Below, piece by piece: positions 1,997-37,982 of a stretch of 37,982 nt of DNA. How positions within the stretch are numbered: position 1 is the stretch's first letter; every line of letters begins with the position of its first letter. Below the pieces are notes generated by a model that did not search any database, was not told where the DNA came from, and was given only the letters and a program-made list of their open reading frames with translations. This DNA comes from a virus. Position numbers and translations under genes: made by a program. The DNA is taken from IMG/VR virus record IMGVR_UViG_3300042555_001580, positions 1 to 37,982 of that record; one strand, written 5' to 3'.

Positions 1997-2021
1997 TTAC
2001 ACACATCAACACAAAGGAACC

Positions 2022-26594: not shown

Positions 26595-27019
26595 ATATCC
26601 TTTTCCTCGGGTGCTATGATAATAGGATTGCCTTTCTGCCCACCAATATTGATCTTTGTGGCCTCATTAAACCCATACATCGCGTTTAGCTCTTTTAAAG
26701 CCCCTGTGGCACCTTGTGCATGGTTTTGGTCCCTAGCTAGCTGGTATGTGTCTAGCAGTGCCGTCATGGCCATCTCACGAGTCCACACAACGCCTTGCTC
26801 AGCTCTTGCTTTAAGGTCAGCAATCATATCGGATACGTTAGAGTTTCGAGCGACTTCAAAGGCTTGCACTCTCTGAGAATTTTTGCTGCTTGTTTTTGCA
26901 TCGTAAGCATCACGGTAAGCATCAACCTGTTTCATGCCGCTTGCAACGTTCCTAGCGAATTTCTCTTGCTTAGGTGTTAGCTTCTTCTTTTTGCTTTTCG
27001 TCGGCTTTTTATCATCCAT
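26591..27019 (-). CDS. Terminase small subunit, 142 aa
   Basis: DNA-recognition subunit of the packaging motor. The basic N-terminus (MDDKKPTKSKKKKLTPKQEK) runs into FARNVASGMKQVDAYRDAYD, the helix-turn-helix typical of the Terminase_2-type family. A central oligomerisation helix and a short beta tail (KINIGGQKGNPIIIAPE) follow. The ATG at 27019 is chosen because AGGGAGG lies 7 bases upstream; a longer frame to 27052 would run through that site. First gene of the late operon. Confidence 0.85.
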   Translation of the reverse strand: MDDKKPTKSKKKKLTPKQEKFARNVASGMKQVDAYRDAYDAKTSSKNSQRVQAFEVARNSNVSDMIADLKARAEQGVVWTREMAMTALLDTYQLARDQNHAQGATGALKELNAMYGFNEATKINIGGQKGNPIIIAPEEKDI

Positions 27020-27039
27020 AAAATCCTCCCTTTTGTGTA

Positions 27040-27068
27040 TGTATGACAACAAAAACCCATAAAATCAA
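27040..27068 (-). promoter_or_regulatory. Promoter of the late (morphogenesis) operon
   Basis: On the minus strand TTGATT (27068-27063), a 17-bp spacer and CATACA (27045-27040), followed by ACACAAAAGGGAGG and the TerS ATG. The -10 region (TTGTTGTCATACATACACAA) is part of the palindromic motif shared with other phage promoters. It is less perfect than the early ones, which could delay it or require activation. Confidence 0.65.
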
Positions 27069-27115
27069 GCCCTTTCTTTTTTCCTATTTTTTTTGCATTT
27101 TCTTGTATTTTCTTA

Positions 27116-27144
27116 TTGACATGCTGCAATTATTGCAGTAGTCT
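27116..27144 (+). promoter_or_regulatory. Early promoter with CTGCAA-N3-TTGCAG operator
   Basis: TTGACA (27116-27121), a 17-bp spacer and TAGTCT (27139-27144). The spacer contains the perfect palindrome CTGCAATTATTGCAG (27124-27138), so a bound dimer would cover the promoter. The same element occurs at 28478-28492. It drives the early operon from 27197. Confidence 0.75.
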
Positions 27145-27196
27145 GTATATAACAACAACACAAGCGCTTAACACTCAACACAAAGGAAGCCAAGCC

Positions 27197-27496
27197 ATGA
27201 ACCAACAACAATCTTTGGAATACTTAAAAGGCATGATGGAAAACGGAATGTCTGTTGCAGACGCAAACGTGGAACTTATCAGAATGACAGGCGTTCGACT
27301 GGTAACGGGAAAAATACCCAAAGATGTGCGCTCTGCTCTTATGGCTGGCGTAAAAGATGGAAGAATCGGCAGGCTTGCAAAGGAAGGTCATAAACCAGAG
27401 GCATTTTTTCACCCAAATTCTATTTGGAATGCCAAAGAAGCCAGAAACAAAGCGGAAAACAACGCAATACGCGCTCTTTTAGCAATTTGCGCCTAA
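27197..27496 (+). CDS. Early protein, 99 aa, possibly nucleic-acid binding
   Basis: The ATG at 27197 follows AAAGGAAG; an in-frame extension to 27116 would cover the promoter. MNQQQSLEYLKGMMENGMSV begins a mainly helical protein with a basic middle (VRSALMAGVKDGRIGRLAKE) and an Asn/Lys-rich end. GHKPEAFFHPNSIWNAKEAR resembles small phage proteins that may carry an HTH, but no family can be assigned. First gene of the roughly 4-kb early operon, so probably made immediately after infection. Confidence 0.65.
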   Translation: MNQQQSLEYLKGMMENGMSVADANVELIRMTGVRLVTGKIPKDVRSALMAGVKDGRIGRLAKEGHKPEAFFHPNSIWNAKEARNKAENNAIRALLAICA

Positions 27497-27521
27497 CCGT
27501 CAATCAAAAGGAGTAACCACC

Positions 27522-27767
27522 ATGACAGGCTTTAAACCTTACCCTATCAAAGAAGCCCTAGAAATCATACAAAACGCGAAAAGCGTTTATGTTTTAGGCC
27601 AAATATCCTTTAAAAAACCAAGCCCAGAAAGCAAGTTACGCCAGTATTCGTACTGTGTTGCCCTATCCAAAAAAGACAAATCTGAAATGATCAAAAAGTT
27701 TTCCGAATGGAGAGACGATCTAACAATGGACCTTGAAATAGACGGCGAAGAAATCTGTATTGGATAA
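27522..27767 (+). CDS. Early hypothetical protein, 81 aa
   Basis: ATG 27522 has AAAAGGAG 9 bases upstream. The product (MTGFKPYPIKEALEIIQNAK) has strand-helix alternation and an acidic C-terminus (TMDLEIDGEEICIG). No membrane segment and no known domain. Likely a small host-interaction or regulatory protein because of its position at the head of the early operon. Confidence 0.6.
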   Translation: MTGFKPYPIKEALEIIQNAKSVYVLGQISFKKPSPESKLRQYSYCVALSKKDKSEMIKKFSEWRDDLTMDLEIDGEEICIG

Positions 27768-27800
27768 CACCATAGCAACTTTTCCTTAACCCCTTTTGTG

Positions 27801-27806
27801 TATTGT
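27801..27806 (+). promoter_or_regulatory. Possible internal promoter -10 (TATTGT)
   Basis: TATTGT at 27801-27806 lies in the shared TTGTGTATTGTGTCTAAACA context, followed by the typical leader ACAACAAAAGGAACC. No good -35 is visible 17 bp upstream (only ACTTTT, or TTAACC too close), so it may be weak or activator-dependent. Confidence 0.35.
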
Positions 27807-27839
27807 GTCTAAACACACACAACAAAAGGAACCCTTACT

Positions 27840-27902
27840 ATGTCTTTTCTCGAAACCCTATCCGTGATTGCCCTAGCCTTTTTTGTCTGGGGCTCTCACT
27901 AA
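27840..27902 (+). CDS. Possible 20-aa membrane micropeptide
   Basis: ATG 27840 has AAAAGGAACC upstream within the typical phage leader. It encodes MSFLETLSVIALAFFVWGSH, one hydrophobic helix with an acidic residue in front. Its own leader, with strong ribosome site and -10-like element, argues for expression. It could insert in the inner membrane or act as a leader peptide for the next gene 28 bases downstream. Confidence 0.45.
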   Translation: MSFLETLSVIALAFFVWGSH

Positions 27903-27930
27903 ACCAACACAACACAAAGGAAACCAAACC

Positions 27931-28248
27931 ATGTTTATTCAAACCATCCAAATCTCTCAATACGAAGCCGCCTTGCAGCTTTTAAAATCTAACCTCTACC
28001 CTTGGGATTGTGACCCTGAGGCGTGCGTTGCGATTATTGAATATCTCTGGGATCAATCCGAAGAGGCAGGTGGCACGCCGTTCAATTTTGACGTGGTGGA
28101 GCTTACAAACAACTGGGCCGTTTATGATGACCTTGATGCCTTTAACAAAGACCACAACACCACCTTTGAAAACGTCAAAGACATAAACTGCTTAACCCAA
28201 ATCGTCCCACTTCGCGGTGAGCGTTTTCTTGCCGAAAACTTTATTTAA
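27931..28248 (+). CDS. Early hypothetical protein, 105 aa (ArdA-like features)
   Basis: ATG 27931 (AAAGGAAACC upstream). The product is strongly acidic. The motif YDDLDAFNKDHNTTFENVKD with preceding LTNNWAVYDDL and DPEACVAIIEYLWDQ recalls small acidic proteins such as ArdA or DNA-mimic anti-restriction proteins, but the length and motifs are not enough for that name. It has no basic patch and no membrane segment. Testable as a DNA mimic. Confidence 0.6.
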   Translation: MFIQTIQISQYEAALQLLKSNLYPWDCDPEACVAIIEYLWDQSEEAGGTPFNFDVVELTNNWAVYDDLDAFNKDHNTTFENVKDINCLTQIVPLRGERFLAENFI

Positions 28249-28260
28249 AGGACCACAACC

Positions 28261-28452
28261 ATGAACCCCAAAATCACCCTAAAAATCACCAAAGGCAACG
28301 GCGGTTACGTGCTGGGATACCTTGTCAAATCAAACGGCAAAATCCTGTTCACAAAACGTGAATCCTCTCAGTTTGTCAGCAGACAGGCCGCCAACTACTA
28401 CGGACAATGCATTATCAAAGAAGCAAACCAACTGGGATATTTTCCTGTTTAA
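28261..28452 (+). CDS. Early hypothetical protein, 63 aa
   Basis: ATG 28261 with AAAGGACC upstream. Basic protein MNPKITLKITKGNGGYVLGY with beta strands then a short helix (SRQAANYYGQCIIKEANQLG). Not recognised. Directly follows the 27931 gene, before the second operator-bearing promoter. Confidence 0.55.
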   Translation: MNPKITLKITKGNGGYVLGYLVKSNGKILFTKRESSQFVSRQAANYYGQCIIKEANQLGYFPV

Positions 28453-28469
28453 ATGCTGCATTTTTTGCC

Positions 28470-28498
28470 TTGACAGCCTGCAAGTATTGCAGTATTGT
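28470..28498 (+). promoter_or_regulatory. Early promoter with second CTGCAA-N3-TTGCAG operator
   Basis: TTGACA (28470-28475), a 17-bp spacer and TATTGT (28493-28498). The spacer holds CTGCAAGTATTGCAG (28478-28492), a 6-3-6 palindrome as at 27124. A half-like element (CTGCATTTTTTGCC) lies just upstream. The gene at 28921 in this operon encodes an HTH protein, a candidate binder. Confidence 0.75.
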
Positions 28499-28506
28499 AT
28501 ATCTAT

Positions 28507-28526
28507 CATCAACAAAAGGAAACCAA
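28507..28526 (+). promoter_or_regulatory. Leader segment complementary to both loops of the 37714 RNA
   Basis: CATCAACAAA (28507-28516) and GAAACCAA (28519-28526) lie directly before the ATG at 28529. They are exact complements of UUUGUUGAUG (37767-37776) and UUGGUUUC (37732-37739), which sit in the loops of two hairpins of the small RNA. The order fits antiparallel pairing. Similar partial matches occur in other leaders. Confidence 0.6.
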
Positions 28527-28528
28527 CC

Positions 28529-28909
28529 ATGACCAACATCGAAAACATAAAAGACAACATCGAATCCTTGGAAAACAGCTTGGAAAAGGCGAAAGCCGAG
28601 CTAGAATTTTCTAAATTCCTTTCGTGTTTTAAGGAATTTATCCCAGACCCAAAAGGATCAACCGAATACAATTCTTACAAATTAAAAAATCACATAGAAA
28701 AACACCCAAGCCGAATTATCCAATTTTTTTTAAAAGGCCGTCAATTTTTCATATCTGAACGTAGATTGCGTTCCACATGGCATGATAAAACCCGCACTAT
28801 CACAATACCTATTGATAAAAAAACAAACGAATTTCTTAAAGATTTAAAGGGTGTCTTAGAAAAACATAAGGATACTTTGGGTCCTATCACAAATCAGTTA
28901 CCAGAATAA
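28529..28909 (+). CDS. Hypothetical protein, 126 aa, likely paralog of the 2022 product
   Basis: ATG 28529 (AAAAGGAAACC upstream); a longer frame from 28322 overlaps another gene. N-terminal coiled-coil (IESLENSLEKAKAELEFSKF), a basic middle (KGRQFFISERRLRSTWHDKT) and an end TIPIDKKTNEFLKDLKGVLE similar in layout to the 2022-2333 product. Function unknown. Its start region is the best match to the candidate small RNA at 37714, so it may be regulated by it. Confidence 0.65.
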   Translation: MTNIENIKDNIESLENSLEKAKAELEFSKFLSCFKEFIPDPKGSTEYNSYKLKNHIEKHPSRIIQFFLKGRQFFISERRLRSTWHDKTRTITIPIDKKTNEFLKDLKGVLEKHKDTLGPITNQLPE

Positions 28910-28920
28910 GGAAACCAACC

Positions 28921-29112
28921 ATGACACCCGAACAGTTTAAACAATCAAGGCTACACTTGGGCGTCAGCCAAACAGGACTATGCGCCCTTGTGGGTAAATG
29001 CGTTCGCACGATCCAATACTATGAATCCGGCGAATACCCCATCCCCAAATCTATGGAACTTCTTATCAAGCATCTTATCAAACAAAAGGACCAATCCAAT
29101 GAACCAAAATAA
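28921..29112 (+). CDS. XRE-type helix-turn-helix protein, 63 aa
   Basis: Compact HTH: RLHLGVSQTGLCALVGKCVR (helices 2-3), TIQYYESGEYPIPKSMELLI (recognition and end). The LGVSQ..L..LVG....TI..YE.G pattern is the XRE class. There is no dimerisation domain beyond residue 60. ATG 28921 (AAGGAAACC upstream). It is the second gene of an operon whose promoter has a palindromic CTGCAA-N3-TTGCAG site, so autoregulation is an attractive inference. It overlaps the next gene by 14 bases. Confidence 0.78.
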   Translation: MTPEQFKQSRLHLGVSQTGLCALVGKCVRTIQYYESGEYPIPKSMELLIKHLIKQKDQSNEPK

Positions 29113-29353
29113 CATCCTATCTTACCAAATGATTGACAATCTCATCAATCAAATCTTTGGACAAACCGATGACCGCGAAAAACTGCAAGCCTTCGCCGCC
29201 CGTATTCTGCTAGAGCAACAGAAACTGAATAGCCCATGCCTAACCAACAAATTTGGCAAAGAACACGCAGAAACGTCCTACGGATACCGAGAATACAACC
29301 CCTATAGTCCTTTTAAATTCCCCATCATAAACCACCAAATTAAAGGAGCATAA
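29099..29353 (+). CDS. Early hypothetical protein, 84 aa
   Basis: ATG 29099 (AAAAGGA upstream) is preferred over the longer frame, which runs through the HTH gene. MNQNNILSYQMIDNLINQIF starts a helical N-terminus (TDDREKLQAFAARILLEQQK), then a Tyr/Pro-rich tail. No domain recognised. Part of the early operon. Confidence 0.6.
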   Translation: MNQNNILSYQMIDNLINQIFGQTDDREKLQAFAARILLEQQKLNSPCLTNKFGKEHAETSYGYREYNPYSPFKFPIINHQIKGA

Positions 29354-29355
29354 CC

Positions 29356-29520
29356 ATGGATGATAAATCCTATACCACCTATGACGAAACAGCGGAAATA
29401 TCCGATGAAGCACTAAAAGCACTGGATGAACTTCCAAGATCAAAAATCCAGTTTATTTCAACGTCACCCACAACTTGGATGCACGACTTTTACACAAAAA
29501 ACAAAGGAGACCAACCATGA
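29356..29520 (+). CDS. Early acidic hypothetical protein, 54 aa
   Basis: ATG 29356 (AAAGGAGC upstream) gives MDDKSYTTYDETAEISDEAL and continues to TGA 29518-29520, overlapping the next ATG (29517). Highly acidic N-terminal half, then a Trp/Met/His segment (TTWMHDFYTKNKG). Not recognised. Confidence 0.6.
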   Translation: MDDKSYTTYDETAEISDEALKALDELPRSKIQFISTSPTTWMHDFYTKNKGDQP

Positions 29521-29750
29521 TTAACACCATCTATATCCAAAAACTACGCGACCTCGGTTTTTACACGCGCTGCATGGTGCAAATGGAAGAACACGGACAC
29601 AAGGCCCTCTTTGTTCATGAAGAAGGCCGTAGAGCAACCGTAACGCTGGCAGAATGCAGAACAGAGATCAGAAACATCAACCATGACCTGATGCTGCTTA
29701 AAACGTCTTTACCGCGTGAATGGACAGAACACTACAAAATCGTATCGTGA
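29517..29750 (+). CDS. Early hypothetical protein, 77 aa
   Basis: ATG 29517 with AAAGGAGACC upstream is the natural start; the frame is open further upstream but inside the previous gene. MINTIYIQKLRDLGFYTRCM starts a small alpha/beta protein with a basic helix (RATVTLAECRTEIRNINHDL). No family recognised. Confidence 0.6.
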   Translation: MINTIYIQKLRDLGFYTRCMVQMEEHGHKALFVHEEGRRATVTLAECRTEIRNINHDLMLLKTSLPREWTEHYKIVS

Positions 29751-29757
29751 GGGAATT

Positions 29758-29970
29758 ATGAAACATTTACCATACATAAAAAGAATCCAAATAAGATTAA
29801 AAGAAATCGAAAAGGCAAAAAACGATGCAACGCTAAATCTTAATAAAATCTTAGATGAACAAAAAGAATTAGAAATCAGTCTAAAAATCTTTGAAAAATA
29901 CAATGTAGATTGTAATGATCCAGAATTATCTTCTTGTTTTTTGGAATTAAAATTAAAGGAATCATTATGA
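29758..29970 (+). CDS. Early coiled-coil protein, 70 aa
   Basis: ATG 29758 (GAGGGAA upstream). Mostly one charged coiled-coil (IKRIQIRLKEIEKAKNDATL), then a Cys-containing tail. Its layout resembles other small coiled-coil early proteins in this genome. Stop overlaps the next start. Confidence 0.58.
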   Translation: MKHLPYIKRIQIRLKEIEKAKNDATLNLNKILDEQKELEISLKIFEKYNVDCNDPELSSCFLELKLKESL

Positions 29971-30311
29971 AATACGGACAAGAATTGCTTAATTTGGTTA
30001 ATTACGTAGCGTCAAAAAATGAGGAATTTGATGATCTTAGCTTCCAAATTTTATTTGGAGTGCATTCGTTTCTTTACCATTCAAATTTTTTTACCGAAAA
30101 TTATAGCCCTTACGAAGAAGGCATCGAAATATGTTTTTATAAAGAAGGAAAATTTATTGCCAAAGTTTTATATCGCCCACATGAGTTAAAAAACCAAACT
30201 GGTGAATTGTGGATAGACCAAGAAATTCAGAATCTATCAAAAATAGCTGAAACTAAAAATAAAATCACAGAACTGAAAGAACAAATTAAAAAACTGGAGG
30301 AAACACTATGA
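29967..30311 (+). CDS. Early hypothetical protein, 114 aa, C-terminal coiled-coil
   Basis: ATG 29967 overlaps the upstream stop (AAAGGAATCATT upstream). N-terminal part MKYGQELLNLVNYVASKNEE, then a globular region with aromatic residues and a C-terminal heptad helix (KNKITELKEQIKKLEETL). Function unknown. AT-rich codon use fits its early neighbours. It overlaps the next gene by ATGA. Confidence 0.6.
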   Translation: MKYGQELLNLVNYVASKNEEFDDLSFQILFGVHSFLYHSNFFTENYSPYEEGIEICFYKEGKFIAKVLYRPHELKNQTGELWIDQEIQNLSKIAETKNKITELKEQIKKLEETL

Positions 30312-30574
30312 AAAGCCCATCCTTTTACATCATCCTTGATCTGTTTTTTATCCTTTTGTCTTTGATGCTATGCTCAGGCTTTTTGTACCTGCTTAAACAA
30401 GATGACGGCACATCCCTACCTTGGCCCGTGATCTTAGCCCCTGTAGGCGTTGGTCTAGCCAGCCTGTGCCTTTGCATTGCCCTAGCATCCCTTGCCGATT
30501 CCATCCACTTCTTTATGAAACGGAAACGCCGCAAAAAACCCGACGAAAAAAACGTTTTCTCAATCTTGGACTAA
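30308..30574 (+). CDS. Two-helix membrane protein, 88 aa
   Basis: ATG 30308 with CTGGAGG upstream. Two hydrophobic segments (FYIILDLFFILLSLMLCSGF, residues 6-25; WPVILAPVGVGLASLCLCIA, about 38-57) and a very basic tail (FFMKRKRRKKPDEK). Positive-inside placement puts the tail in the cytosol. It could be an exclusion or host-membrane modifier; nothing specific shows which. Confidence 0.6.
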   Translation: MKSPSFYIILDLFFILLSLMLCSGFLYLLKQDDGTSLPWPVILAPVGVGLASLCLCIALASLADSIHFFMKRKRRKKPDEKNVFSILD

Positions 30575-30578
30575 CACC

Positions 30579-30710
30579 ATGCAATACGAAATCTACACCC
30601 TGATTTACCTACTTAAAGGATCAATCCTTAAATCCATGACAGGAAAACCCCTACCAGATGCAGCAAAACCTTTGATTCTAAAACTAAAAAAAGAACTAGA
30701 AAATCAATAA
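30579..30710 (+). CDS. Early peptide, 43 aa
   Basis: ATG 30579, 5 bases past the previous stop, encodes MQYEIYTLIYLLKGSILKSM and continues to a basic helical end (LILKLKKELENQ). A short amphipathic N-terminus could bind membranes. No strong ribosome site (CTTGGAC), so coupling to the upstream gene is likely. Not recognised. Confidence 0.5.
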   Translation: MQYEIYTLIYLLKGSILKSMTGKPLPDAAKPLILKLKKELENQ

Positions 30711-30721
30711 AGGAAACGTTT

Positions 30722-30922
30722 ATGAATTTATTTATTATGATTTCTTTCACTATCTTCATTATCGGTGCTCCATTTGCCGTGCTGTATTATCAATCACTCA
30801 AATTAGACAAACAGATTGCTCAAGAGATTAAGGGAATTTATGAAACTTACGAAAAAATCAAGGATGTAATACGAGAAATAAAGGAAATGAAACAAGAAAT
30901 AATAGAACGGGAAAATCAATAA
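30722..30922 (+). CDS. Single-pass membrane protein with coiled-coil, 66 aa
   Basis: ATG 30722 (AAAGGAAACG upstream). N-terminal hydrophobic helix (MNLFIMISFTIFIIGAPFAV) with a cytosolic coiled-coil (IKDVIREIKEMKQEIIEREN). The arrangement resembles membrane-tethered toxins or small spanin-like peptides, but no motif decides. Last gene before the promoter at 30926. Confidence 0.58.
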   Translation: MNLFIMISFTIFIIGAPFAVLYYQSLKLDKQIAQEIKGIYETYEKIKDVIREIKEMKQEIIERENQ

Positions 30923-30925
30923 TTT

Positions 30926-30953
30926 TTTAACCCTTTGTTGGTATGGTATACAC
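30926..30953 (+). promoter_or_regulatory. Promoter upstream of the 30982 gene
   Basis: TTTAAC (30926-30931), 16 bp, TATACA (30948-30953) inside TTGGTATGGTATACACACA, the shared -10 palindrome. The leader CATCAACCAACAAAGGAGAC is of the same family as the other phage leaders. The -35 is weak. Confidence 0.5.
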
Positions 30954-30981
30954 ACATCAACCAACAAAGGAGACTACTACC

Positions 30982-31281
30982 ATGTTACCGTTTCAATACC
31001 TCTTTATTGCCGCCGCCGTCATGTGGGGACTATCCCAAATGATCCCCGCCAACCATATCCAAATCAAAATGCAAAGCACGTCTGCGCTTATCATGATGAT
31101 GATCGGCATGACCATCACAGGCGTTATCACCATCCCTCAATTCGAGCCTGAGAAACCCCTAAAGTACCTTGAACCATCGCAAGCCGTGCTGCGCGAAAAC
31201 AACACTGCCCGTATCAAGCCTATGGACACCTTCGGGCCAGATGACCTTGACCGCGACATCAAACGCTTGGGAAAATACTAA
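30982..31281 (+). CDS. Membrane protein, 99 aa
   Basis: ATG 30982 with AAAGGAGACTACTACC upstream. Two hydrophobic segments (MLPFQYLFIAAAVMWGLSQM; ALIMMMIGMTITGVITI) followed by a charged soluble domain (GPDDLDRDIKRLGKY). Probably an inner-membrane protein with a cytosolic tail. Last gene of the early operon, just before a bidirectional terminator. No family recognised. Confidence 0.6.
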   Translation: MLPFQYLFIAAAVMWGLSQMIPANHIQIKMQSTSALIMMMIGMTITGVITIPQFEPEKPLKYLEPSQAVLRENNTARIKPMDTFGPDDLDRDIKRLGKY

Positions 31282-31285
31282 AAGG

Positions 31286-31353
31286 AAAAAGGGAGGAACC
31301 AACATCGTCAAATTCCTTATAAGGCACGATGTGAGGATTTATCCTCCCTTTTT
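31286..31353. terminator. Bidirectional terminator between convergent operons
   Basis: AAAAAGGGAGGA (31286-31297) and TCCTCCCTTTTT (31342-31353) are perfect 12-bp inverted repeats, giving a stem followed by T-runs on both strands. The loop holds a second stem (ACATCGT, 31302-31308, with ACGATGT, 31326-31332) around CCTTATAAGG. It lies between the plus early operon and the minus replication operon. The following 135 bases to 31488 hold only a weak ACCAATAA/TTATTGGT inverted repeat. Confidence 0.75.
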
Positions 31354-31488
31354 AAACAAACCCCTATAGGTGCTTAGGGCTTGTTAAGGCTGTCTGTGTT
31401 GCATCCTCTCAAGACAACCAGAGTAACCAATAAGACCGACCGAGTATTCCCAATCCAAAATCTTTATTGGTCAGTGTACACCAAAAAC

Positions 31489-31734
31489 TTAATCACTTTT
31501 TGTCACGGATTGCAAGGCTTCTTTTCCCAATCTGGCTTGTTCTGCCTGCATAAATTCTTTTATCCATGGCGTGTCTTCTTCAGGATTCCGAACACCAAAT
31601 TCCCTAAGAATCTCTAATCCCAAAACCAGCAAATCATCATCATCAGCCATCGGTGATAGATACCCAAATCTTGTGCGACGGTGGCCAAACAAATCATCAA
31701 TCACATTGACAATTCTGTCTTCTAAAGGTTCCAT
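31489..31734 (-). CDS. Hypothetical acidic protein, 81 aa
   Basis: ATG 31734 (TTG 31737 is just upstream), with AGGAATTT upstream. Begins MEPLEDRIVNVIDDLFGHRR; acidic and helical, with an EFMQAEQARLGKEALQSVTK end. Not recognised. Last gene of the minus-strand replication operon. Confidence 0.6.
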   Translation of the reverse strand: MEPLEDRIVNVIDDLFGHRRTRFGYLSPMADDDDLLVLGLEILREFGVRNPEEDTPWIKEFMQAEQARLGKEALQSVTKSD

Positions 31735-31747
31735 CAATTTTAAATTC

Positions 31748-32035
31748 CTAAACCGCTTCTACAGAATTAACAAAAACTTTTATTTTGTTTCCAGATAATT
31801 TTTTGATTGCTACCTCTACGGTTATATCCATAAGAAAATCCTTATATTCATACTCTACGGTGTGAAATGGAATATCAGATATACCTTCTTTTGTTAAAAC
31901 TATTGCTGCTTGCTCATCAAGTTCATCTTCCACTTCTGACGAAATATCAACACGATATTTTAAATCAAAAGTAGCAATGCCATTGACTTCATTTTCGTCA
32001 TACCATTCTTGAAACGTGATAGTTTTTTTAGTCAT
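31748..32035 (-). CDS. Hypothetical protein, 95 aa
   Basis: ATG 32035 (AAAGAGGAACAC upstream) fits better than an upstream start at 32134. MTKKTITFQEWYDENEVNGI, then alternating beta segments. The N-terminal pattern (I..EW...N) resembles the 33462-33758 product, so they may be distant paralogs. Function unknown; part of the replication operon. Confidence 0.58.
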   Translation of the reverse strand: MTKKTITFQEWYDENEVNGIATFDLKYRVDISSEVEDELDEQAAIVLTKEGISDIPFHTVEYEYKDFLMDITVEVAIKKLSGNKIKVFVNSVEAV

Positions 32036-32064
32036 TGTGTTCCTCTTTGTTAAATTTTTAATAA

Positions 32065-32367
32065 TCAATTCTGCCACCACATCGCCTTCGTTTCTTTCCT
32101 CGGCAAAACATAATCCCTTTCTTTCTTGATCCACTCAACCTTACTTCCCTTCATCATGCACACGTTTGGCTCTTCAAAGCATCTTTCTAATGCCGAACCA
32201 TAAAGCTGCACCACACTCCCCAAATGCCGCCCAGGGAGTCTCAAAACCACCAGCCCCTCAGACGGACGCGATTCAACCTCAAGCGTCTTCAAAAATATAT
32301 CCACAAACCCAGCCTCTGTTTTCGGCAACACGTCCTTTAATCTCTGTATCACTTCAACGCGATCCAT
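32065..32367 (-). CDS. Hypothetical protein, 100 aa
   Basis: ATG 32367 has AGAGGG about 5 bases upstream. MDRVEVIQRLKDVLPKTEAG, then a hydrophobic strand (LVVLRLPGRHLGSVVQLYG) and a C-terminal segment ending PRKETKAMWWQN. It overlaps the winged-helix gene upstream by 14 bases. No family identified. Confidence 0.58.
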   Translation of the reverse strand: MDRVEVIQRLKDVLPKTEAGFVDIFLKTLEVESRPSEGLVVLRLPGRHLGSVVQLYGSALERCFEEPNVCMMKGSKVEWIKKERDYVLPRKETKAMWWQN

Positions 32368-32785
32368 CTTTACCCTCTCTGATAGAGAAAGATTCAACCA
32401 TACGGCCAACTCTGCGCCCCCCGTATGTCATGTTACTGTCTAAAATGGCCTTCAATCGCAAAGACTGAAGCAGGTTTGATACTCTGGCTATGTCTATACC
32501 TGACCGATCACATATAGACCTACGGGTAGGCACAATGCCTTCCTCAGTTAGCTGTTTTATGGTGTCTAAAATTAACTGCTTTTCAGAAAAATGTTTAGAG
32601 TGCCCGTGTTCATATTCCTTCAATAAAACATCATTTACACGAGGCCCGTCAAACTCCTCTAAAACCGCATACGCAAAATGCACAAGATCACAATGGGGAA
32701 TAATATAATGATTGTTTACAAAGGAATACGGTTCACCCAAATTTTCCGTTATAAGTTTTGAAATTCTCTCGTATTTATGCGTCAT
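32354..32785 (-). CDS. Winged-helix-like DNA-binding protein, 143 aa
   Basis: The C-terminal half contains an HTH (IVPTRRSICDRSGIDIARVS, residues about 85-104, then NLLQSLRLKAIL), followed by a short beta wing-like segment (MTYGGRRVGRM). The N-terminal half (ISKLITENLGEPYSF) is probably a separate domain. ATG 32785 with AGAGGAGGAAAGCC upstream. Encoded in the replication operon, so it could be a regulator or an origin-binding protein. Family unassigned. Confidence 0.65.
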   Translation of the reverse strand: MTHKYERISKLITENLGEPYSFVNNHYIIPHCDLVHFAYAVLEEFDGPRVNDVLLKEYEHGHSKHFSEKQLILDTIKQLTEEGIVPTRRSICDRSGIDIARVSNLLQSLRLKAILDSNMTYGGRRVGRMVESFSIREGKDGSR

Positions 32786-33215
32786 GGCTTTCCTCCTCTT
32801 CCAATTCATACCAATGCCTAACTATTATAGGTCCGTATTTTTTTTCATCCCTGCATAAAGCCTTATCTCCATCAAACCATGTATAATCATAAAAATCATG
32901 GCATTTCCACAAAACTGTATCAAATTTTTTCCTTAAAAACCTTACAGTTTCTGGTATTTCTGTTTTAGACATTTTCCCCATAATAATCCCTAATGGAGTT
33001 GGGTGAAACTTAACCAAAAGTGATCCGTCTAAACCATCACCCTCCTTTGGGTCTTCCATTTCTTCTTCTGATTCTCTTCGTTTTTGATAAAATTCCCATC
33101 TTAAATCCGTTAACTTTTCTATTTCTGCATTTAAATCATCGCATATCTTTTGCAATCCCCACGATTCGCATTGCATCATGTCCCTATCAAGTATAAATTG
33201 AACCGTCATTCCCAT
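32775..33215 (-). CDS. Hypothetical protein, 146 aa
   Basis: ATG 33215 (AAGGAGGACGAAAGCC upstream) with a second in-frame ATG two codons later; an upstream start at 33251 would overlap the previous gene further. MGMTVQFILDRDMMQCESWG, then a charged coiled-coil (DLNAEIEKLTDLRWEFYQKR), an acidic linker, and an aromatic C-terminal part. No recognised domain. Confidence 0.6.
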   Translation of the reverse strand: MGMTVQFILDRDMMQCESWGLQKICDDLNAEIEKLTDLRWEFYQKRRESEEEMEDPKEGDGLDGSLLVKFHPTPLGIIMGKMSKTEIPETVRFLRKKFDTVLWKCHDFYDYTWFDGDKALCRDEKKYGPIIVRHWYELEEEESHDA

Positions 33216-33465
33216 GGCTTTCGTCCTCCTTTTGCTTAATAAAATCCTCAATTTCCGACGGCAAAGGAATCCTGCCCGTTCTTTGGATAATCGCCTTCAC
33301 AGCAACAACAACATCATCCCCAGAAAAACGACTGGATAACATATCCTCCAAGGCATCACACACCCTTTTCGGATCACGTGTGCCAATGCCATACATATCC
33401 ATCACACGACAAATACGGTTTATGTGATAAAACAAATCTTTACGTTGCGGTTCAGTCCAACTCAT
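33187..33465 (-). CDS. Replication-module protein, 92 aa
   Basis: Starts MSWTEPQRKDLFYHINRICR. The end of its helical domain (VVVAVKAIIQRTGRIPLPSE, then IEDFIKQKEDE) has the 'riPlPsEI' turn seen in short phage replication-associated helical proteins. ATG overlaps the upstream stop. Context suggests helicase loading or origin functions, but no name can be given. Confidence 0.58.
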   Translation of the reverse strand: MSWTEPQRKDLFYHINRICRVMDMYGIGTRDPKRVCDALEDMLSSRFSGDDVVVAVKAIIQRTGRIPLPSEIEDFIKQKEDESHGNDGSIYT

Positions 33466-33758
33466 GATTCATCCTCACTGACATCAATAATTTCAGAAGA
33501 GTATTTTAAATCATTATTTCTTCCTCGAAATAATGTAACCTTAACCTTAACCTTAACCTTAAGTGGCTTCCAATCGGAAACACCAGATGTCAAAGCCTCT
33601 GTTTTTGTTGTAAAGTGTGAAAAACAATTCCTGATAAAATCTTCCATTTTGTAATGTAAAGGCACGGTGTCCGATAGTTCACATTGAAGCATTCCATCGT
33701 CTTCTTTATTCGCCTCAAACCATTCCTCAATCGTTGGAAGAATTTTCTCTTCAGTCAT
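33462..33758 (-). CDS. Hypothetical protein with (Lys-Val)4 hexamer tract, 98 aa
   Basis: ATG 33758 overlaps the stop of the membrane peptide gene (ATGA). MTEEKILPTIEEWFEANKED, then a soluble domain. Near the C-terminus KVKVKVKV is coded by four copies of a 6-bp repeat (33537-33560). The tract would form a basic beta strand, so its length may matter. Not recognised. Confidence 0.6.
   Translation of the reverse strand: MTEEKILPTIEEWFEANKEDDGMLQCELSDTVPLHYKMEDFIRNCFSHFTTKTEALTSGVSDWKPLKVKVKVKVTLFRGRNNDLKYSSEIIDVSEDES
33537..33562. repeat. Hexanucleotide repeat (AACCTT)4
   Basis: AACCTT repeats four times plus two bases on the plus strand; (AAGGTT)4 in the coding sense, giving Lys-Val dipeptides. 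It looks telomere-like only by coincidence. Slippage by one unit would add or remove two residues without a frameshift. Confidence 0.9.
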
Positions 33759-33907
33759 GATTCATCTCTCTTTCTAAATTTATCACGAATCTTGATGAAT
33801 TTTTCATATAACCATGCAAGCACGTACCATAGTGCCGCAAGACCCAAAACGATGCCAAAAATAGACAGGACCACCGCGTCTTTGACATTCATTGTAAACA
33901 AAAACAT
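33755..33907 (-). CDS. Small membrane protein, 50 aa
   Basis: ATG 33907, with AAGGGAGTG upstream and a promoter at 33932-33960, encodes MFLFTMNVKDAVVLSIFGIV, then LGLAALWYVLAWLYEK and a basic tail (RDKFRKRDES). One long hydrophobic region (about residues 11-33) with a positive C-terminus suggests an inner-membrane protein. It heads its own transcription unit within the replication operon. No family recognised; a membrane tether for replication or an exclusion factor are possibilities. Confidence 0.68.
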   Translation of the reverse strand: MFLFTMNVKDAVVLSIFGIVLGLAALWYVLAWLYEKFIKIRDKFRKRDES

Positions 33908-33931
33908 AATTCACTCCCTTGTTGTTGTGTA

Positions 33932-33960
33932 TGTATAACACAAACACAAACCACCGTCAA
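33932..33960 (-). promoter_or_regulatory. Promoter of the second replication unit
   Basis: TTGACG (33960-33955), 17 bp, TATACA (33937-33932), with TTGTGT-TATACAT-ACACAA (perfect 6-7-6 inverted repeat) across the -10. It overlaps the stop of the upstream gene at 33957. Drives the membrane protein gene and the genes down to 31489. Confidence 0.75.
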
Positions 33961-34433
33961 GCATCATCTTTAGCTGCCATGTTCTGAATCTCCAACCTCT
34001 TAACAACCTCTTTTTCCAAACAAGAATTGTTTTTTGTCAAAGTATTAAACAATTCCGCAATCTCGTGATACTGTGGATACCACTGCGTATTTGATTCCTT
34101 GATTTGCTGATAAGCCACCAAAAGAGAAAGCGCGGAAATCTTCCCATGAAAATCCTCCGCAATCTCGTTTATCAAAATGGAAAGGGTAGCCTCACCATTC
34201 GATGCGTGTTTAAAAGCCATCAGACGGCTAAGGACATCGGTCAACATCTTTTTGCTTGCCACCACCCATTGCAACCTCAAGACATCATCGTAGAGGCTTC
34301 CTAGAGCCTTTTGGACGCATTCGGCATCTTGAGGCTCCTCTCGCAACAGATCAAAACTTTCCGTTTTGGTTTTTGAATCGTACTTCAAACCGTAAATACC
34401 CTTAGGACTCAAGGCCAAGATTACGTCTGACAT
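33957..34433 (-). CDS. Possible helicase-loader-like replication protein, 158 aa
   Basis: Follows the initiator gene and overlaps its end by 32 bases. ATG 34433 (MSDVILALSPKGIYGLKYDS) has no good ribosome site, while ATG 34553, 40 codons upstream inside the initiator gene, has GGGAG 7 bases away, so the N-terminus is undecided. The C-terminal half (LSRLMAFKHASNGEATLSIL, TQWYPQYHEIAELFNTL) has the pattern of phage helical proteins with a W-P-...-EI/EL turn found next to replication initiators. Loader function is inference from position. Confidence 0.55.
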   Translation of the reverse strand: MSDVILALSPKGIYGLKYDSKTKTESFDLLREEPQDAECVQKALGSLYDDVLRLQWVVASKKMLTDVLSRLMAFKHASNGEATLSILINEIAEDFHGKISALSLLVAYQQIKESNTQWYPQYHEIAELFNTLTKNNSCLEKEVVKRLEIQNMAAKDDA

Positions 34434-35226
34434 TGATGATTTTACGTTCGTAGTCAGTGAGTTTGGTAGGGAATCTTTGATTCTTTTCGTGTCCAAAGAA
34501 GACACCTTCACCTGATTCACCGCCGTTGTTACCATTGTTCCAAGTCTCTGCATTGTGTTTTCTCCCGTTGGTTTTGGTTTCTTTCGTTTCGTAAACTGTC
34601 TGCCATCCGCGCTCTATTGCTGCTTCCAAAAGCCGCGTCGGATCATTCCCGTCGTTGTAGAGATTTATAATTTTGCTGATAAGCAATTCCTTCGCCCGAT
34701 GCGACATGGCCTTTTTCAAATCTTTGCGATGCTGGAAAAAATCCAAAAGCAAATCTTCAGGGATGTAACTGGGAATATCCAACGGCGTTTCAGATTCAGC
34801 TTTTTTCTTTATAGATTTCTTTTTTAAAATATCAGTATCAGTATCAGTATCAGTATCAGTATCAGTATCAGTATCAGTATCAGTATCAGGTTTTTTTGGG
34901 TTATTTTGGGTTTCTAAATTAACCGACTCTAACCCAGATAAACCCACTGGGTTATTTTGGGTTTCTTTGGGTTCCTCTGTTTTTACAGGACGACCTCCCT
35001 TTAAACCATTGATCTTGTTTCTTTCTTTAACGGACTCATATTTTTCCATGTCTCTATCAAGGTTCACTTTGATAAAACTGAATGCCATCTGCACGATGGG
35101 TTCCATTTCCACATCATGACCCTGATTGTATAAAAAAATGGCTTTTAAAAGTTTCCCAGCCTGTTCATCCGTTAGCAACTGGATGTGCTGTTCGTAGTCC
35201 TGATACAGGATAAAACTCTTTTTCAT
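34402..35226 (-). CDS. Replication initiator-like protein (DUF6291-type N-terminus), 274 aa
   Basis: The N-terminal domain (SFILYQDYEQHIQLLTDEQA, then GKLLKAIFLYNQG, AFSFIKVNLDRDMEKYE) matches the DUF6291 type found in phage replication genes. A KGGRP turn, a linker with two ETQNNP units and a (Asp-Thr)9 tract follow. The C-terminal domain has MSHRAKELLISKIINLY and LLEAAIERGWQTVY, as in phage replisome organisers. It probably opens the origin and recruits host helicase, since no polymerase or helicase is encoded here. ATG 35226 has no clear Shine-Dalgarno (GAAAG only), and its leader is long and structured. Confidence 0.72.
   Translation of the reverse strand: MKKSFILYQDYEQHIQLLTDEQAGKLLKAIFLYNQGHDVEMEPIVQMAFSFIKVNLDRDMEKYESVKERNKINGLKGGRPVKTEEPKETQNNPVGLSGLESVNLETQNNPKKPDTDTDTDTDTDTDTDTDTDILKKKSIKKKAESETPLDIPSYIPEDLLLDFFQHRKDLKKAMSHRAKELLISKIINLYNDGNDPTRLLEAAIERGWQTVYETKETKTNGRKHNAETWNNGNNGGESGEGVFFGHEKNQRFPTKLTDYERKIINVRRNLGLES
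34831..34889. repeat. Hexanucleotide repeat (ATCAGT)9-10 in the initiator gene
   Basis: Nine full ATCAGT units plus five bases, encoding ten Asp and nine Thr in alternation. The tract separates the N- and C-terminal domains. Similar Asp-Asn/Asp-Thr linkers occur in related initiator proteins. Unit changes keep the frame. Confidence 0.93.
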
Positions 35227-35454
35227 GGGGTTTCTTTCGTTCTATTTCGTTCAAAATGATGCCGTGGCAGGCGAACGATAACTTTTCAAAGGGCTAATTA
35301 CTTCCCTTCTAGCCACGGCATTTTTTGCTGGAACATATTTCCTTGTTCCGGAAACAGAAGGCACCCGCTACGCAGTCACCATCTTTTTTGGGGCAACCCG
35401 TCCCGAGGAAGGAAGAATTGGGCTTTCGGCTGTCGACTGCCTAGCCCCATGTTG
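35227..35454 (-). ncRNA. Long structured 5' leader of the initiator mRNA
   Basis: About 228 bases from the promoter (35455-35483) to the ATG, unusual in a genome where most leaders are about 30 bases. Pairings on the minus strand: 35445-35435 with 35377-35367 (GCTAGGCAGTC with GACTGCGTAGC, one G-G mismatch); GGAACA at 35349-35344 with TGTTCC at 35335-35330; ATGCCGTGGC with GCCACGGCAT (35321-35312 with 35268-35259), enclosing AAGGG/CCCTT. GGAACA can also pair with TGTTTCC-side bases, so two folds compete. No ORF is supported. A cis-regulatory RNA is likely; C4-type antisense control is one idea. Confidence 0.6.
35259..35326 (+). terminator. Plus-strand terminator-like hairpin inside the leader
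   Basis: On the plus strand ATGCCGTGGC (35259-35268) pairs with GCCACGGCAT (35312-35321), then TTTTTT (35321-35326). The 43-base loop is long. No plus gene lies upstream, so it would stop antisense transcription, or serve mainly as a leader hairpin on the minus strand. Confidence 0.4.
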
Positions 35455-35483
35455 TTGGTATATTATACAGGCAGAAAAGTCAA
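35455..35483 (-). promoter_or_regulatory. Promoter of the replication initiator operon
   Basis: TTGACT (35483-35478), 15 bp, TATACC (35462-35457), or 17 bp to TACCAA (35460-35455). A perfect TATAAT lies at 35467-35462 but too close to the -35. The palindrome GGTATATTATACA recalls the one at 37192-37208. Confidence 0.6.
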
Positions 35484-35499
35484 GTGTTTTTAGACGGTT

Positions 35500-35946
35500 T
35501 TAAAGATGTTTAATTTCTTTTTGAATCTCTGCCACCAAAGATTCATGCATGGTCACGCCCTCAAGGGCGGGGATGCAGCGCTTAAGAAGCTGCTTTGCCC
35601 GCTGCTGGGCAGTAAAAGGCTGCTGTTCAGGTGTTTTTCTTTTTTCAGGATGCAGCACCCACGTCTTAAAGTTAATGCCCTCTTCCTTACCTTGTATTCC
35701 GCACTGAAGGACATGCTCATAGTATGAATCCATATCCTCGAACGTGGCATCTAGCTTTAAGCACTCTTGGACAAAGTCTATGCCGTAGTACCTGTCGCAG
35801 CACTCAAAAACATTGGTGTAATCGTTTTCGTCCCACCCAACAAAATATACCGTGGCCAAAGATTCTTCAGGGTAGTATTTCTTGAGAAACGCAATAATCG
35901 TTTTTTTACACGCATCATTATATTTTAACCACGCATCATTTTTCAT
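35500..35946 (-). CDS. Hypothetical protein, 148 aa
   Basis: MKNDAWLKYNDACKKTIIAF, a helical N-terminal region, then FVGWDENDYTNVFECCDRYY with several Cys and Asp, and a Gln-rich C-terminal helix (QQPFTAQQRAKQLLKRCIPA). No family recognised. First gene of the minus replication side, with its own promoter (35981-36009). Function unknown. Confidence 0.62.
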   Translation of the reverse strand: MKNDAWLKYNDACKKTIIAFLKKYYPEESLATVYFVGWDENDYTNVFECCDRYYGIDFVQECLKLDATFEDMDSYYEHVLQCGIQGKEEGINFKTWVLHPEKRKTPEQQPFTAQQRAKQLLKRCIPALEGVTMHESLVAEIQKEIKHL

Positions 35947-35956
35947 AACTTATCTC

Positions 35957-35990
35957 TTGATTTTGTCATTGTGTTGGTGTATGGTATACA
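35957..35990 (+). promoter_or_regulatory. Promoter of the right accessory operon
   Basis: TTGATT (35957-35962), 17 bp, TATGGT (35980-35985), or overlapping TTGTCA (35963-35968), 16 bp, TATACA (35985-35990). It faces the minus promoter at 35981-36009; both share the palindromic GTGTATGGTATACATAACAC. One regulator could control both sides. Confidence 0.65.
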
Positions 35991-36009
35991 TAACACAAAA
36001 GAAAGTCAA
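35981..36009 (-). promoter_or_regulatory. Promoter of the 35500-35946 gene
   Basis: TTGACT (36009-36004), 17 bp, TACCAT (35986-35981) on the minus strand. It overlaps the divergent plus promoter by its -10 region, so the two cannot be occupied together. Confidence 0.6.
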
Positions 36010-36018
36010 GAGAAAACC

Positions 36019-36309
36019 ATGCTATATAGACTTGATGACACCTGTATTCTCAAAAAAAGCGACGTGGCTGATATTTTAAACCTTCTTTTTTCTGACGAAG
36101 AAAGTTCACTTTACGAAGTTTGCCATGTTCTTAGAGAGGCTATGAAGCAATCCTTGGATGGCTGGGTAGCTGTTCCTTATAAGGCCAGTAAAAAACAACT
36201 AAGTGGAGGCGACCCTGTTAGTGGGAATACATATTCCCCTATATCGTTAGGTCGGTGGCAATCTATTCTTGCATTAAGCCCTGAAAATCCACCAACAGAA
36301 AGCATGTGA
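36019..36309 (+). CDS. Accessory hypothetical protein, 96 aa
   Basis: ATG 36019 (MLYRLDDTCILKKSDVADIL) with GAAAGTC upstream; a longer start at 35971 would run through the promoter. Small acidic alpha/beta protein ending SPENPPTESM. Not recognised. Overlaps the pentapeptide gene if its GTG is used. Confidence 0.6.
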   Translation: MLYRLDDTCILKKSDVADILNLLFSDEESSLYEVCHVLREAMKQSLDGWVAVPYKASKKQLSGGDPVSGNTYSPISLGRWQSILALSPENPPTESM

Positions 36310-36311
36310 TT

Positions 36312-36626
36312 ATGATTTTATACAAACCATCGCGCGAAGAAATCCGACAAAAAATGGAAGATTTAGATTTTAATTTTGATAATTTAGATTTGTCTAAAAC
36401 AAATTTTTACTCTGTAAGTGGAAATACTATTTGCGGGGCTTTACTTATGCACGCATCTTTTCAAAACTCTGATTTGAGAAACGCATCTTTTAATGGAGCA
36501 TCTTTGCATGGTGCTAATTTTTTAAATGCAAATCTTGAAGGCGCATCATTTTATGATGCAAGATTTAATAATACGATTATGCCAGATGGATCCATCCGAA
36601 GTGGTATTTGTCGTGATAAATTTTAA
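36312..36626 (+). CDS. Pentapeptide-repeat protein, about 104 aa
   Basis: About eight A(D/N/S)(L/F)XX-type units are visible (FNFDNLDLSKTNFYSV, ASFQNSDLRNASFNGASLHG, ANFLNANLEGASFYDA), the right-handed helix of the MfpA/Qnr type. The start may be GTG 36306, overlapping the previous stop, or ATG 36312. It is the second pentapeptide protein here (the other is at 19499). A DNA-mimic or gyrase-interacting role is possible but not shown. Confidence 0.78.
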   Translation: MILYKPSREEIRQKMEDLDFNFDNLDLSKTNFYSVSGNTICGALLMHASFQNSDLRNASFNGASLHGANFLNANLEGASFYDARFNNTIMPDGSIRSGICRDKF

Positions 36627-36653
36627 AGTCTAAGAGCATCTAAAGGAAAAATT

Positions 36654-36887
36654 ATGATTTTATCATACTACTACACCGGAATTCACAAAGATGAATTGCC
36701 AGCCTTTGAAAAGAAGGCAAAGAAACTACAGGCTGATTATAAATCGTTTGTGGTTGGCGGCATCGAGAGAACAATGCGGGTTCATTTCACGGGTGATGAT
36801 TTAACCGAGTGTGAAAAAAAGGCATCGGTTTTTCGTAAGGTTTATGCAAACAAAAAGGAGATTGGTCCATGGTCAAAAAATCTTTAA
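36654..36887 (+). CDS. Accessory hypothetical protein, 77 aa
   Basis: ATG 36654 (AAAGGAAAAATT upstream). MILSYYYTGIHKDELPAFEK begins a basic alpha/beta protein with strand VGGIERTMRVHFTGDDL and a final Lys-rich helix. Not recognised. Overlaps the exported protein gene by 19 bases. Confidence 0.6.
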   Translation: MILSYYYTGIHKDELPAFEKKAKKLQADYKSFVVGGIERTMRVHFTGDDLTECEKKASVFRKVYANKKEIGPWSKNL

Positions 36888-37126
36888 TTTTAGTCGCTTT
36901 GCTTTCAAGTGATGCCATGGCGCAATATTATAGCCCACAAACCTACATGCCATTAAACTGTAGTACAATGTGGACGGCAGAATGTGAGTCGGCTGCAAGA
37001 ACATCTGAATTGCAAAATCAACAGGAAATGCTTGACTTCATGAGAAAACAAGAAGCCAACCGAAGCCTTGAGCAGATAAACGAAAGTAACGATAGGTTTT
37101 GGAGAGAATTTCGTTTGCCAAAATAA
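36869..37126 (+). CDS. Exported small protein, 85 aa (probable moron)
   Basis: Classical signal peptide: MVKKSLILVALLSSDAMAQY, with a Lys-Lys n-region, a hydrophobic core and an AMA-Q cleavage site after residue 18. The mature part has two Cys (LNCSTMWTAECESAA) that could form a disulfide, then a charged helix (FMRKQEANRSLEQINE). Only this protein in the window is clearly exported. Periplasmic phage morons often block superinfection or alter the envelope; this is inference. Confidence 0.7.
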   Translation: MVKKSLILVALLSSDAMAQYYSPQTYMPLNCSTMWTAECESAARTSELQNQQEMLDFMRKQEANRSLEQINESNDRFWREFRLPK

Positions 37127-37191
37127 TCACAGAATAAAACGACACCGTGTCTGGCTAAGCCAAATCCTACAAAACGACGTAATCACGATGC

Positions 37192-37208
37192 TTGTATATA
37201 TTATACAA
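37192..37208 (+). promoter_or_regulatory. Palindrome TTGTATA-TAT-TATACAA
   Basis: Perfect 7-3-7 inverted repeat, 8 bases upstream of the -35 of the next promoter. The -10 region of that promoter (TTGTGTA-GTG-TATACAA) is nearly the same palindrome, so it may be a tandem operator for one regulator. Between 37127 and 37191 I see only a small GACAC/GTGTC repeat. Confidence 0.6.
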
Positions 37209-37216
37209 AAAACTTA

Positions 37217-37245
37217 TTGACACAAGGCCCTTTGTTGTGTAGTGT
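37217..37245 (+). promoter_or_regulatory. Promoter of the 37276 gene
   Basis: TTGACA (37217-37222), 17 bp, TAGTGT (37240-37245), within TTGTGTAGTGTATACAAACA. Leader AACAACAACAAACAAGGAAACCC, as in other phage operons. Confidence 0.75.
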
Positions 37246-37275
37246 ATACAAACAACAACAAACAAGGAAACCCTT

Positions 37276-37674
37276 ATGGTATCATTAACAGATTTTAACA
37301 AGCCTTTTGAATGCACAGACGTGTACGAAAGAGAAAAATACACACTGGAACACGTTGAACTTTCTGATGATGAGGACTTAATCGGAAAAGATGTTACTTT
37401 AATGGCGTATGTTTTTTATCCGAATAGACTTTCTAAAAGTCTTTTTCGTATCCGCTCGAAAGAACAAGAGGGCACAGTAAATTTGGGCGCGTTAGAGTTT
37501 CTTTTAACCCCTGATGAGTACGAAGATTTTTTAGGCGGATTGCTGGATGTTTGCAGTGATTTTTCTGTAGAAGAGCCAAACAAATGGCGCACACACATCA
37601 AATATGTTTGGTCCACAGAGGAAATTGAAAAAACAGACGGACTTCTTTATGACCCAGAATACAGAACCCTGTAA
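37276..37674 (+). CDS. Accessory hypothetical protein, 132 aa
   Basis: ATG 37276 (CAAGGAAACCC upstream). MVSLTDFNKPFECTDVYERE; acidic alpha/beta protein with AYVFYPNRLSKSLFRIRSKE and a helical segment (TPDEYEDFLGGLLDVCSDF). No domain recognised. It has its own promoter with two palindromes, so it is separately regulated, and it is followed by the small RNA promoter. Confidence 0.62.
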   Translation: MVSLTDFNKPFECTDVYEREKYTLEHVELSDDEDLIGKDVTLMAYVFYPNRLSKSLFRIRSKEQEGTVNLGALEFLLTPDEYEDFLGGLLDVCSDFSVEEPNKWRTHIKYVWSTEEIEKTDGLLYDPEYRTL

Positions 37675-37679
37675 ACCCC

Positions 37680-37708
37680 TTGACAATGGTTAGTGTGTGT
37701 GTCATAAC
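37680..37708 (+). promoter_or_regulatory. Promoter of the candidate small RNA
   Basis: TTGACA (37680-37685), 17 bp, CATAAC (37703-37708). It begins 6 bases after the stop of the 37276 gene. No plus-strand ORF follows before the terminator, so it seems to serve only a short RNA. Same spacing as the other phage promoters. Confidence 0.65.
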
Positions 37709-37713
37709 AACAC

Positions 37714-37793
37714 CAACGCTCCTAAGTGGTTTTGGTTTCTTGCCACTTAAAACTTGGCGGGGTTTCTTTGTTGATGGGAAGCCCCGTTTTTTT
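37714..37793 (+). ncRNA. Candidate antisense small RNA with two hairpins
   Basis: About 80 nt. Hairpin 1: TAAGTGG (37723-37729) with CCACTTA (37743-37749), loop of 13 holding UUGGUUUC. Hairpin 2 is the terminator stem, loop of 11 holding UUUGUUGAUG. Both loop sequences are exact complements of the leader at 28507-28526, in the right antiparallel order. GGGGTTTCTTT (37759-37769) complements the 11 bases before the initiator ATG (35227-35237). It could block translation of early and replication genes. A decayed inverted copy of the leader is the alternative. Confidence 0.6.
37758..37793 (+). terminator. Intrinsic terminator of the small RNA and the 37276 unit
   Basis: CGGGGTTTC (37758-37766) pairs with GAAGCCCCG (37778-37786; one U-G pair), loop of 11, then seven T (37787-37793). 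On the other strand the same stem follows the stop of the 85-aa gene at 37792 but is followed only by a short T-run. Confidence 0.85.
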
Positions 37794-37982
37794 ATTGGTC
37801 AAACACCAGACACCCGCCCTGCTCTTTAACCCTATCCAGCAGGTCGTCAATCTCTTGCCTGATACTCTCTAGGCAATGCACAGATGCGTTGATGTGGTAA
37901 TCGTCAACCGTGTTGGCATGGAAACGCGCAACACGGCATAAACACTCTATCGTTTTTAGGTGGTTGTTTTTCAGGATTATGT
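37792..37982 (-). CDS. Hypothetical 85-aa protein, C-terminal part (gene crosses the contig ends)
   Basis: Continuation of the gene that starts at 194. Codons from 37982 to 37856 repeat those at 127-1, and 37855-37792 supply the missing end, DDLLDRVKEQGGCLVFDQ and TAA. See the entry at 1-194 for the product. Confidence 0.75.
   Translation of the reverse strand, partial: IILKNNHLKTIECLCRVARFHANTVDDYHINASVHCLESIRQEIDDLLDRVKEQGGCLVFDQ
37856..37982. repeat. 127-bp terminal direct repeat, right copy
   Basis: Exact copy of 1-127. See the left copy for interpretation. Confidence 0.95.

Follow-up and report, generated by a model that had tools for sequence, protein, structure and literature searches.

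A conserved two-hairpin candidate small RNA of a phage, with loops complementary to the leaders of small early genes

Genome context and the RNA unit

The window, by which we mean the whole stretch of 37 982 nt that was analysed (G000 among the genomes compared), is a complete-looking circular phage contig whose ends share an exact overlap of 127 bp (1-127 and 37856-37982). An end overlap of the same length occurs in G002, G005, G008 and G013; it looks as if assembly of a circular or permuted genome had produced it, although the record is listed as linear. The minus strand carries structural genes, among them those for the portal (phrog_1216), the terminase and a DNA-transfer-like protein; from about 27 kb onward, small early-type genes are found on the plus strand.

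Near the end of the window we find a candidate small RNA (Table 1). The promoter-like site upstream of it consists of TTGACA (37680-37685), a 17-nt spacer and CATAAC (37703-37708). The second hexamer agrees with the -10 consensus at four of six positions and lacks the usual final T, and the site was not on the list returned by a consensus promoter scan; both hexamers are invariant among the aligned relatives. We consider the promoter plausible, not certain, given the imperfect -10. An inverted repeat surrounds this -10 element (37689-37717, GTTAGTGT...ACACCAAC) and is perfect in several relatives (GTTGGTGT...ACACCAAC); it could be the operator of a phage regulator.

Table 1. Candidate RNA, its parts and the putative target leaders in the window
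Feature	Position	Strand	Details
Candidate small RNA	37714..37793	+	Start inferred from promoter, end from terminator
Promoter-like site of the RNA	37680..37708	+	TTGACA-17-CATAAC; read directly from the sequence
Hairpin 1	37723..37749	+	11-nt loop (37731-37741) with UUUGGUUUC, complement of GAAACCAAA
Hairpin 2 and terminator	37756..37793	+	Hairpin 37756-37788, 13 pairs; U-run to 37793
Best putative target leader	28507..28526	+	CATCAACAAA (loop 2), AG gap, GAAACCAA (loop 1); ATG 28529
Second putative target leader	27914..27928	+	ACAAAG/GAAACCAAA, no gap, 15 bases; ATG 27931
Leader with loop-1 complement only	28911..28918	+	5' of HTH-like gene at 28921
Weaker putative target leader	37256..37272	+	CAACAAA, GAAACC; 7 + 6 bases, 4-base gap; gene directly upstream of the RNA
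Partial putative target leader	2004..2021	+	CATCAACACAAAGGAACC
A slash marks the junction of the loop-2 and loop-1 complements.

The predicted fold of 37714-37793 has two hairpins (-28.4 kcal/mol, z = -3.0). Hairpin 2 folded alone reaches z = -4.5 and is the top terminator-like site within 27000-37982. Inside the RNA there is no start codon with a ribosome site and no plausible ORF in the 80 nt; an intrinsic terminator and the absence of an ORF are both expected of a free-standing small RNA. Thus far the sequence and the folding agree with an earlier note on this DNA, which had described a promoter followed by an ORF-free segment of two hairpins ending in a strong terminator, with the reservation already made about the -10.

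Conservation of the RNA

An exact search with 21 bases showed that 12 further IMG/VR contigs contain hairpin 1. Among the 13 phages, four of the 80 columns of the RNA are variable (5%) and none of the 27 columns of hairpin 1, compared with 177 of 400 columns (44%) in the adjacent gene. The changes fall in the 5' tail, in the linker and at one stem position, where A-U becomes G-U; both loops, whose conservation the earlier note had proposed to check, are identical in 13 of 13 phages. The hairpins are also unchanged in G002, where the upstream gene has diverged and ends differently, and in the window, G001 and G006, which lack the downstream gene; the RNA therefore behaves as a module that does not depend on the adjoining genes, as expected of a free-standing trans-acting small RNA. 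This pattern of substitution supports an RNA-gene-like unit under strong purifying selection.

We found no match to the RNA in GenBank phages, plasmids or GTDB genomes, and a search for genomes carrying the portal of the window returned none. A two-loop pattern scan of viral contigs gave only two matches beyond the clade, L025 and L026, which we judged to be due to chance; the match in L025 lies inside an ORF. In G004 (L016, around 9340-9490, minus strand) the RNA is partially duplicated in tandem, the second copy running from loop 1 onward and having no promoter.

Complementarity of the loops to leaders in the window

Loop 1 (UUGGUUUC, 37732-37739) is complementary to GAAACCAA at 28519-28526, and loop 2 (UUUGUUGAUG, 37767-37776) to CAUCAACAAA at 28507-28516; with one more base on the 5' side, CUUUGUUGAUG of hairpin 2 (37766-37776) is the complement of CAUCAACAAAG. 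Together the loops match 18 of the 20 bases of this leader (10 + 8), loop 2 first and loop 1 after the AG gap, and CC separates the matched stretch from the ATG. This arrangement, with its gap of two bases and its distance of two bases to the start codon, had been put forward in the earlier note and proved exact when the sequence was read again. The presence of GAAACCAA before the ATGs at 27931 and 28921 was likewise borne out, as were partial matches at the start regions at 2022, 30982 and 37276, those at 2022 and 30982 being weak.

The best two-block match in the window was equalled by 6 of 2000 shuffled loop pairs and by 15 of 2000 genomic windows. Folding predicts that the leaders are unstructured. 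A promoter-like sequence, TTGACA-17-TATTGT, is located at 28470-28498, so the 28507 leader would start near the transcript start. Ten of the RNA-bearing phages have this leader, and it is exact in six of them. We also observed that the cassette of promoter plus leader (28470-28528 and its relatives) is kept 5' of genes that differ from phage to phage, with products starting MTNI, MSNK, MTIT and MLIT, as if it were a fixed slot for gene swapping.

Bipartite matches across the RNA-bearing phages

For the family as a whole we pooled 488 distinct start regions of the 13 RNA-bearing phages and defined a bipartite match as a loop-2 complement followed by a loop-1 complement, with a gap of up to two and at least 15 bases in all. 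Such a match was carried by 17 start regions with 15 different N-termini. In relatives the loops jointly cover leaders of the UCAACAAAG/GAAACCAAA type with no gap, and these match better than the leaders of the window, over 18-19 contiguous bases. The best case, TCAACAAAG/GAAACCAAAA (19 of 19 bases, no gap; leader type TCAACAAAGGAAACCAAAACC), lies in G008 (L062/L063) 5' of an ArdC-like antirestriction gene, a minus-strand gene starting MKHDFETILNEALE and encoding an ArdC-N and zincin-like protein.

The number of 17 regions was reached in none of 12 000 mononucleotide shuffles of the loops and in 2 of 6000 dinucleotide shuffles, the kind of control that the earlier note had suggested; with the loop order swapped no region qualified. 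When 170 double hairpins of the window were compared, this RNA matched 22 regions over 13 bases or more, and the runner-up among unrelated ones matched 3. Along the RNA, the surplus of complementarity to start regions lies chiefly in the two loop stretches; strong pairing is almost absent from windows inside ORFs of the RNA-bearing phages tested. These statistics, like the RNA unit, its conservation and the complementarity itself, are results of computation.

The leaders have AAGGAAACCAA in common across 26 N-termini, with a spacing to the ATG of 9 to 13, and the same leader is found 5' of different genes; the AACCAA part of the motif is dispensable for Shine-Dalgarno pairing. If leaders were copied as cassettes, independent leaders are fewer than N-termini. 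In G001 and G004 some leaders have broken matches though the loops are unchanged.

The earlier note had warned that low complexity of the C/A-rich leaders inflates the weaker matches, and the caution was justified. A plain count of 8-mers with the whole RNA shuffled was not significant; it included poly-U against A-rich leaders as well as start regions overlapping the RNA, and tests of the loops only took its place. Nested co-folding of the RNA with the leaders, a method that cannot represent loop contacts, showed no preference or enrichment.

A syntenic relative without the RNA

One phage, G013 (IMGVR_UViG_3300044616_001451), is the single negative control of this analysis and the sole syntenic one among the distant relatives sought for covariation. 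Its portal is on average 97% identical to those found in three phages with the RNA, and the locus has the same genes on either side; the RNA is absent there. With portals this similar, the differences in leaders are less likely to reflect a difference in host. G013 has only one leader of the bipartite-match type. Leaders differ at several orthologous early genes; for example, the leader of the MTDFKPYP gene reads CACGGAGTAAAAACTATG in G013 vs CAAAGGAAACCAAGACCATG in G001 and G009, and that of the MNDKKSF gene has no match in G013 vs CATCAACAAAAGGAAACCAACC in G011. When leaders of orthologues were compared in pairs with those of G013, the test gave no significant result (p = 0.39 over 53 genes; p = 0.37 for the plus strand). 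The start regions of G013 also show some excess of complementarity (9 vs 3.7 start regions), and part of the signal is ordinary Shine-Dalgarno complementarity.

Proposed function and alternative explanations

We think it fairly probable, judging from the sequence comparisons, that a trans-acting phage antisense RNA has its free-standing gene at 37714-37793 and serves a family of leaders by a logic like that of C4 RNA. The two loops would work together as a split antisense: the 5' half of the leader would pair with loop 2 (CUUUGUUGAUG) and its 3' half with loop 1 (UUUGGUUUC). The targets would be unstructured leaders, (CA)UCAACAAAG/GAAACCAA(A) in form, that precede a set of small early phage genes. 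At the best leaders the two short helices would meet within the Shine-Dalgarno sequence (AAG/GA), and pairing should therefore hide the ribosome site, block ribosome binding and repress translation. The part common to all these leaders is the one matched by loop 1; loop 2 matches the variable part and should grade the strength of the effect. The small RNA probably lowers translation of the whole set of genes sharing the leader. From these features we infer transcription of the RNA, its pairing in the cell, repression and a role in the shut-off of early or accessory genes. The idea, already present in the earlier note, of an RNA made to kiss a family of ribosome sites is upheld as far as the conserved unit, the ordered complementarity of two loops and the leader family are concerned.

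One could argue that the region is an ordinary terminator with a spacer hairpin, that the leader motif is a copied start cassette, and that the loops resemble it by descent from an inverted leader copy or by chance, with no function in trans. The leaders are A/C-rich and have a common core with a few upstream bases, as copies would have; the 5' arm plus loop of hairpin 2 is close to an antisense of the leader; GGTTTCTT is present in both hairpins; and the mild excess seen in G013 arises there without the RNA. A plain terminator, however, needs no invariant hairpin 1, and a single inverted copy would not yield a complement split over two loops in the right order, so that we regard this explanation as unlikely. 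We hold it somewhat less likely still that the region is the 5' leader and attenuator of the gene after the terminator, with the terminator governing read-through in cis. About 35-40 bases past the U-run, 9 of the 13 phages have the start of a gene that possesses a ribosome site, which leaves scant room for a separate promoter; yet the gene behind the terminator is not the same in all phages, the RNA is unchanged in the three genomes where the following gene is missing, and regulation in cis leaves the complementarity to distant leaders unexplained.

The least probable of the alternatives, to which we give little credence, is that the RNA acts on RNA of the host, either by targeting mRNAs or by mimicking or sponging a small RNA, with the match to phage leaders being secondary. 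There are known examples of phage RNAs that act on the host (review PMC12197685), and the candidate RNA aligns weakly over its full length with the suhB/MmgR family (RF00519; 22.5 bits, E = 0.013), with which it shares a pyrimidine-rich stretch followed by a terminator hairpin. The family's gathering score, 41, is far above this value, the consensus element CUCCCU is not kept, and the bipartite fit indicates phage leaders instead.

Comparison with known RNAs

P22 sar and lambda OOP are transcribed opposite their targets and match them over long stretches. To our knowledge the classic phage antisense RNAs, C4, sar and OOP, have one phage target each as described. The candidate RNA resembles sar and OOP as phage antisense RNAs that control phage mRNA post-transcriptionally (PMC12197685); it differs in that the match is short and split over two loops and the RNA gene is distant from the putative targets.

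The likeness to C4 RNA (RF01695) is closer: both RNAs are about 80 nt long and have two loops complementary to the ribosome site and to the upstream sequence of a target leader (PMC5320573, PMC12197685). C4 RNA of P1/P7 has three stem-loops; its b' covers the ribosome site and its a' binds upstream for specificity (PMC5320573). The candidate RNA is not a member of the C4 family. The C4 model gave no match in the window at its gathering score and none for 37600-37900 at E up to 10; two hairpins are predicted in place of three; and the RNA has many candidate targets, up to about 9 kb away. C4 is cut by RNase P from a longer transcript, whereas this RNA has its own promoter-like site and intrinsic terminator, which argues against such processing. 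No Rfam family reached its gathering score in the window, and no described counterpart was found in the literature, as covered incompletely by titles and abstracts.

A broader reading of the trans-acting antisense RNA is possible, and we offer it tentatively: a phage-wide translational regulon in which many unrelated early genes have a translational operator in common, TCAACAAAG/GAAACCAA, and a single split antisense RNA, with two loops that jointly make up the complement of this operator, reads it. RNA and leaders would then be matched in specificity, and the pair would differ between phages whose virion genes are near-identical, as in G013, comparable with the repressor and operators of heteroimmune phages. 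An RNA reading the leader of a dozen or more unrelated genes would, if real, be a translational counterpart of the repressor-operator regulon and a simple, portable post-transcriptional switch; it would account for mosaic phages retaining the leader while the gene behind it is swapped.

Palindromes at early promoters were observed as well. Those of the window (at 2000, 27800 and 37230) are of the type TTGTGTAtTGTnTACACA, while those of the relative without the RNA (L096, 5700-5760) read GGTATATG...CATATACC and are not of the window type, a difference resembling that between phages of different repressor specificity. Since these promoter-proximal palindromes differ too, the whole early block of G013 may have been exchanged.
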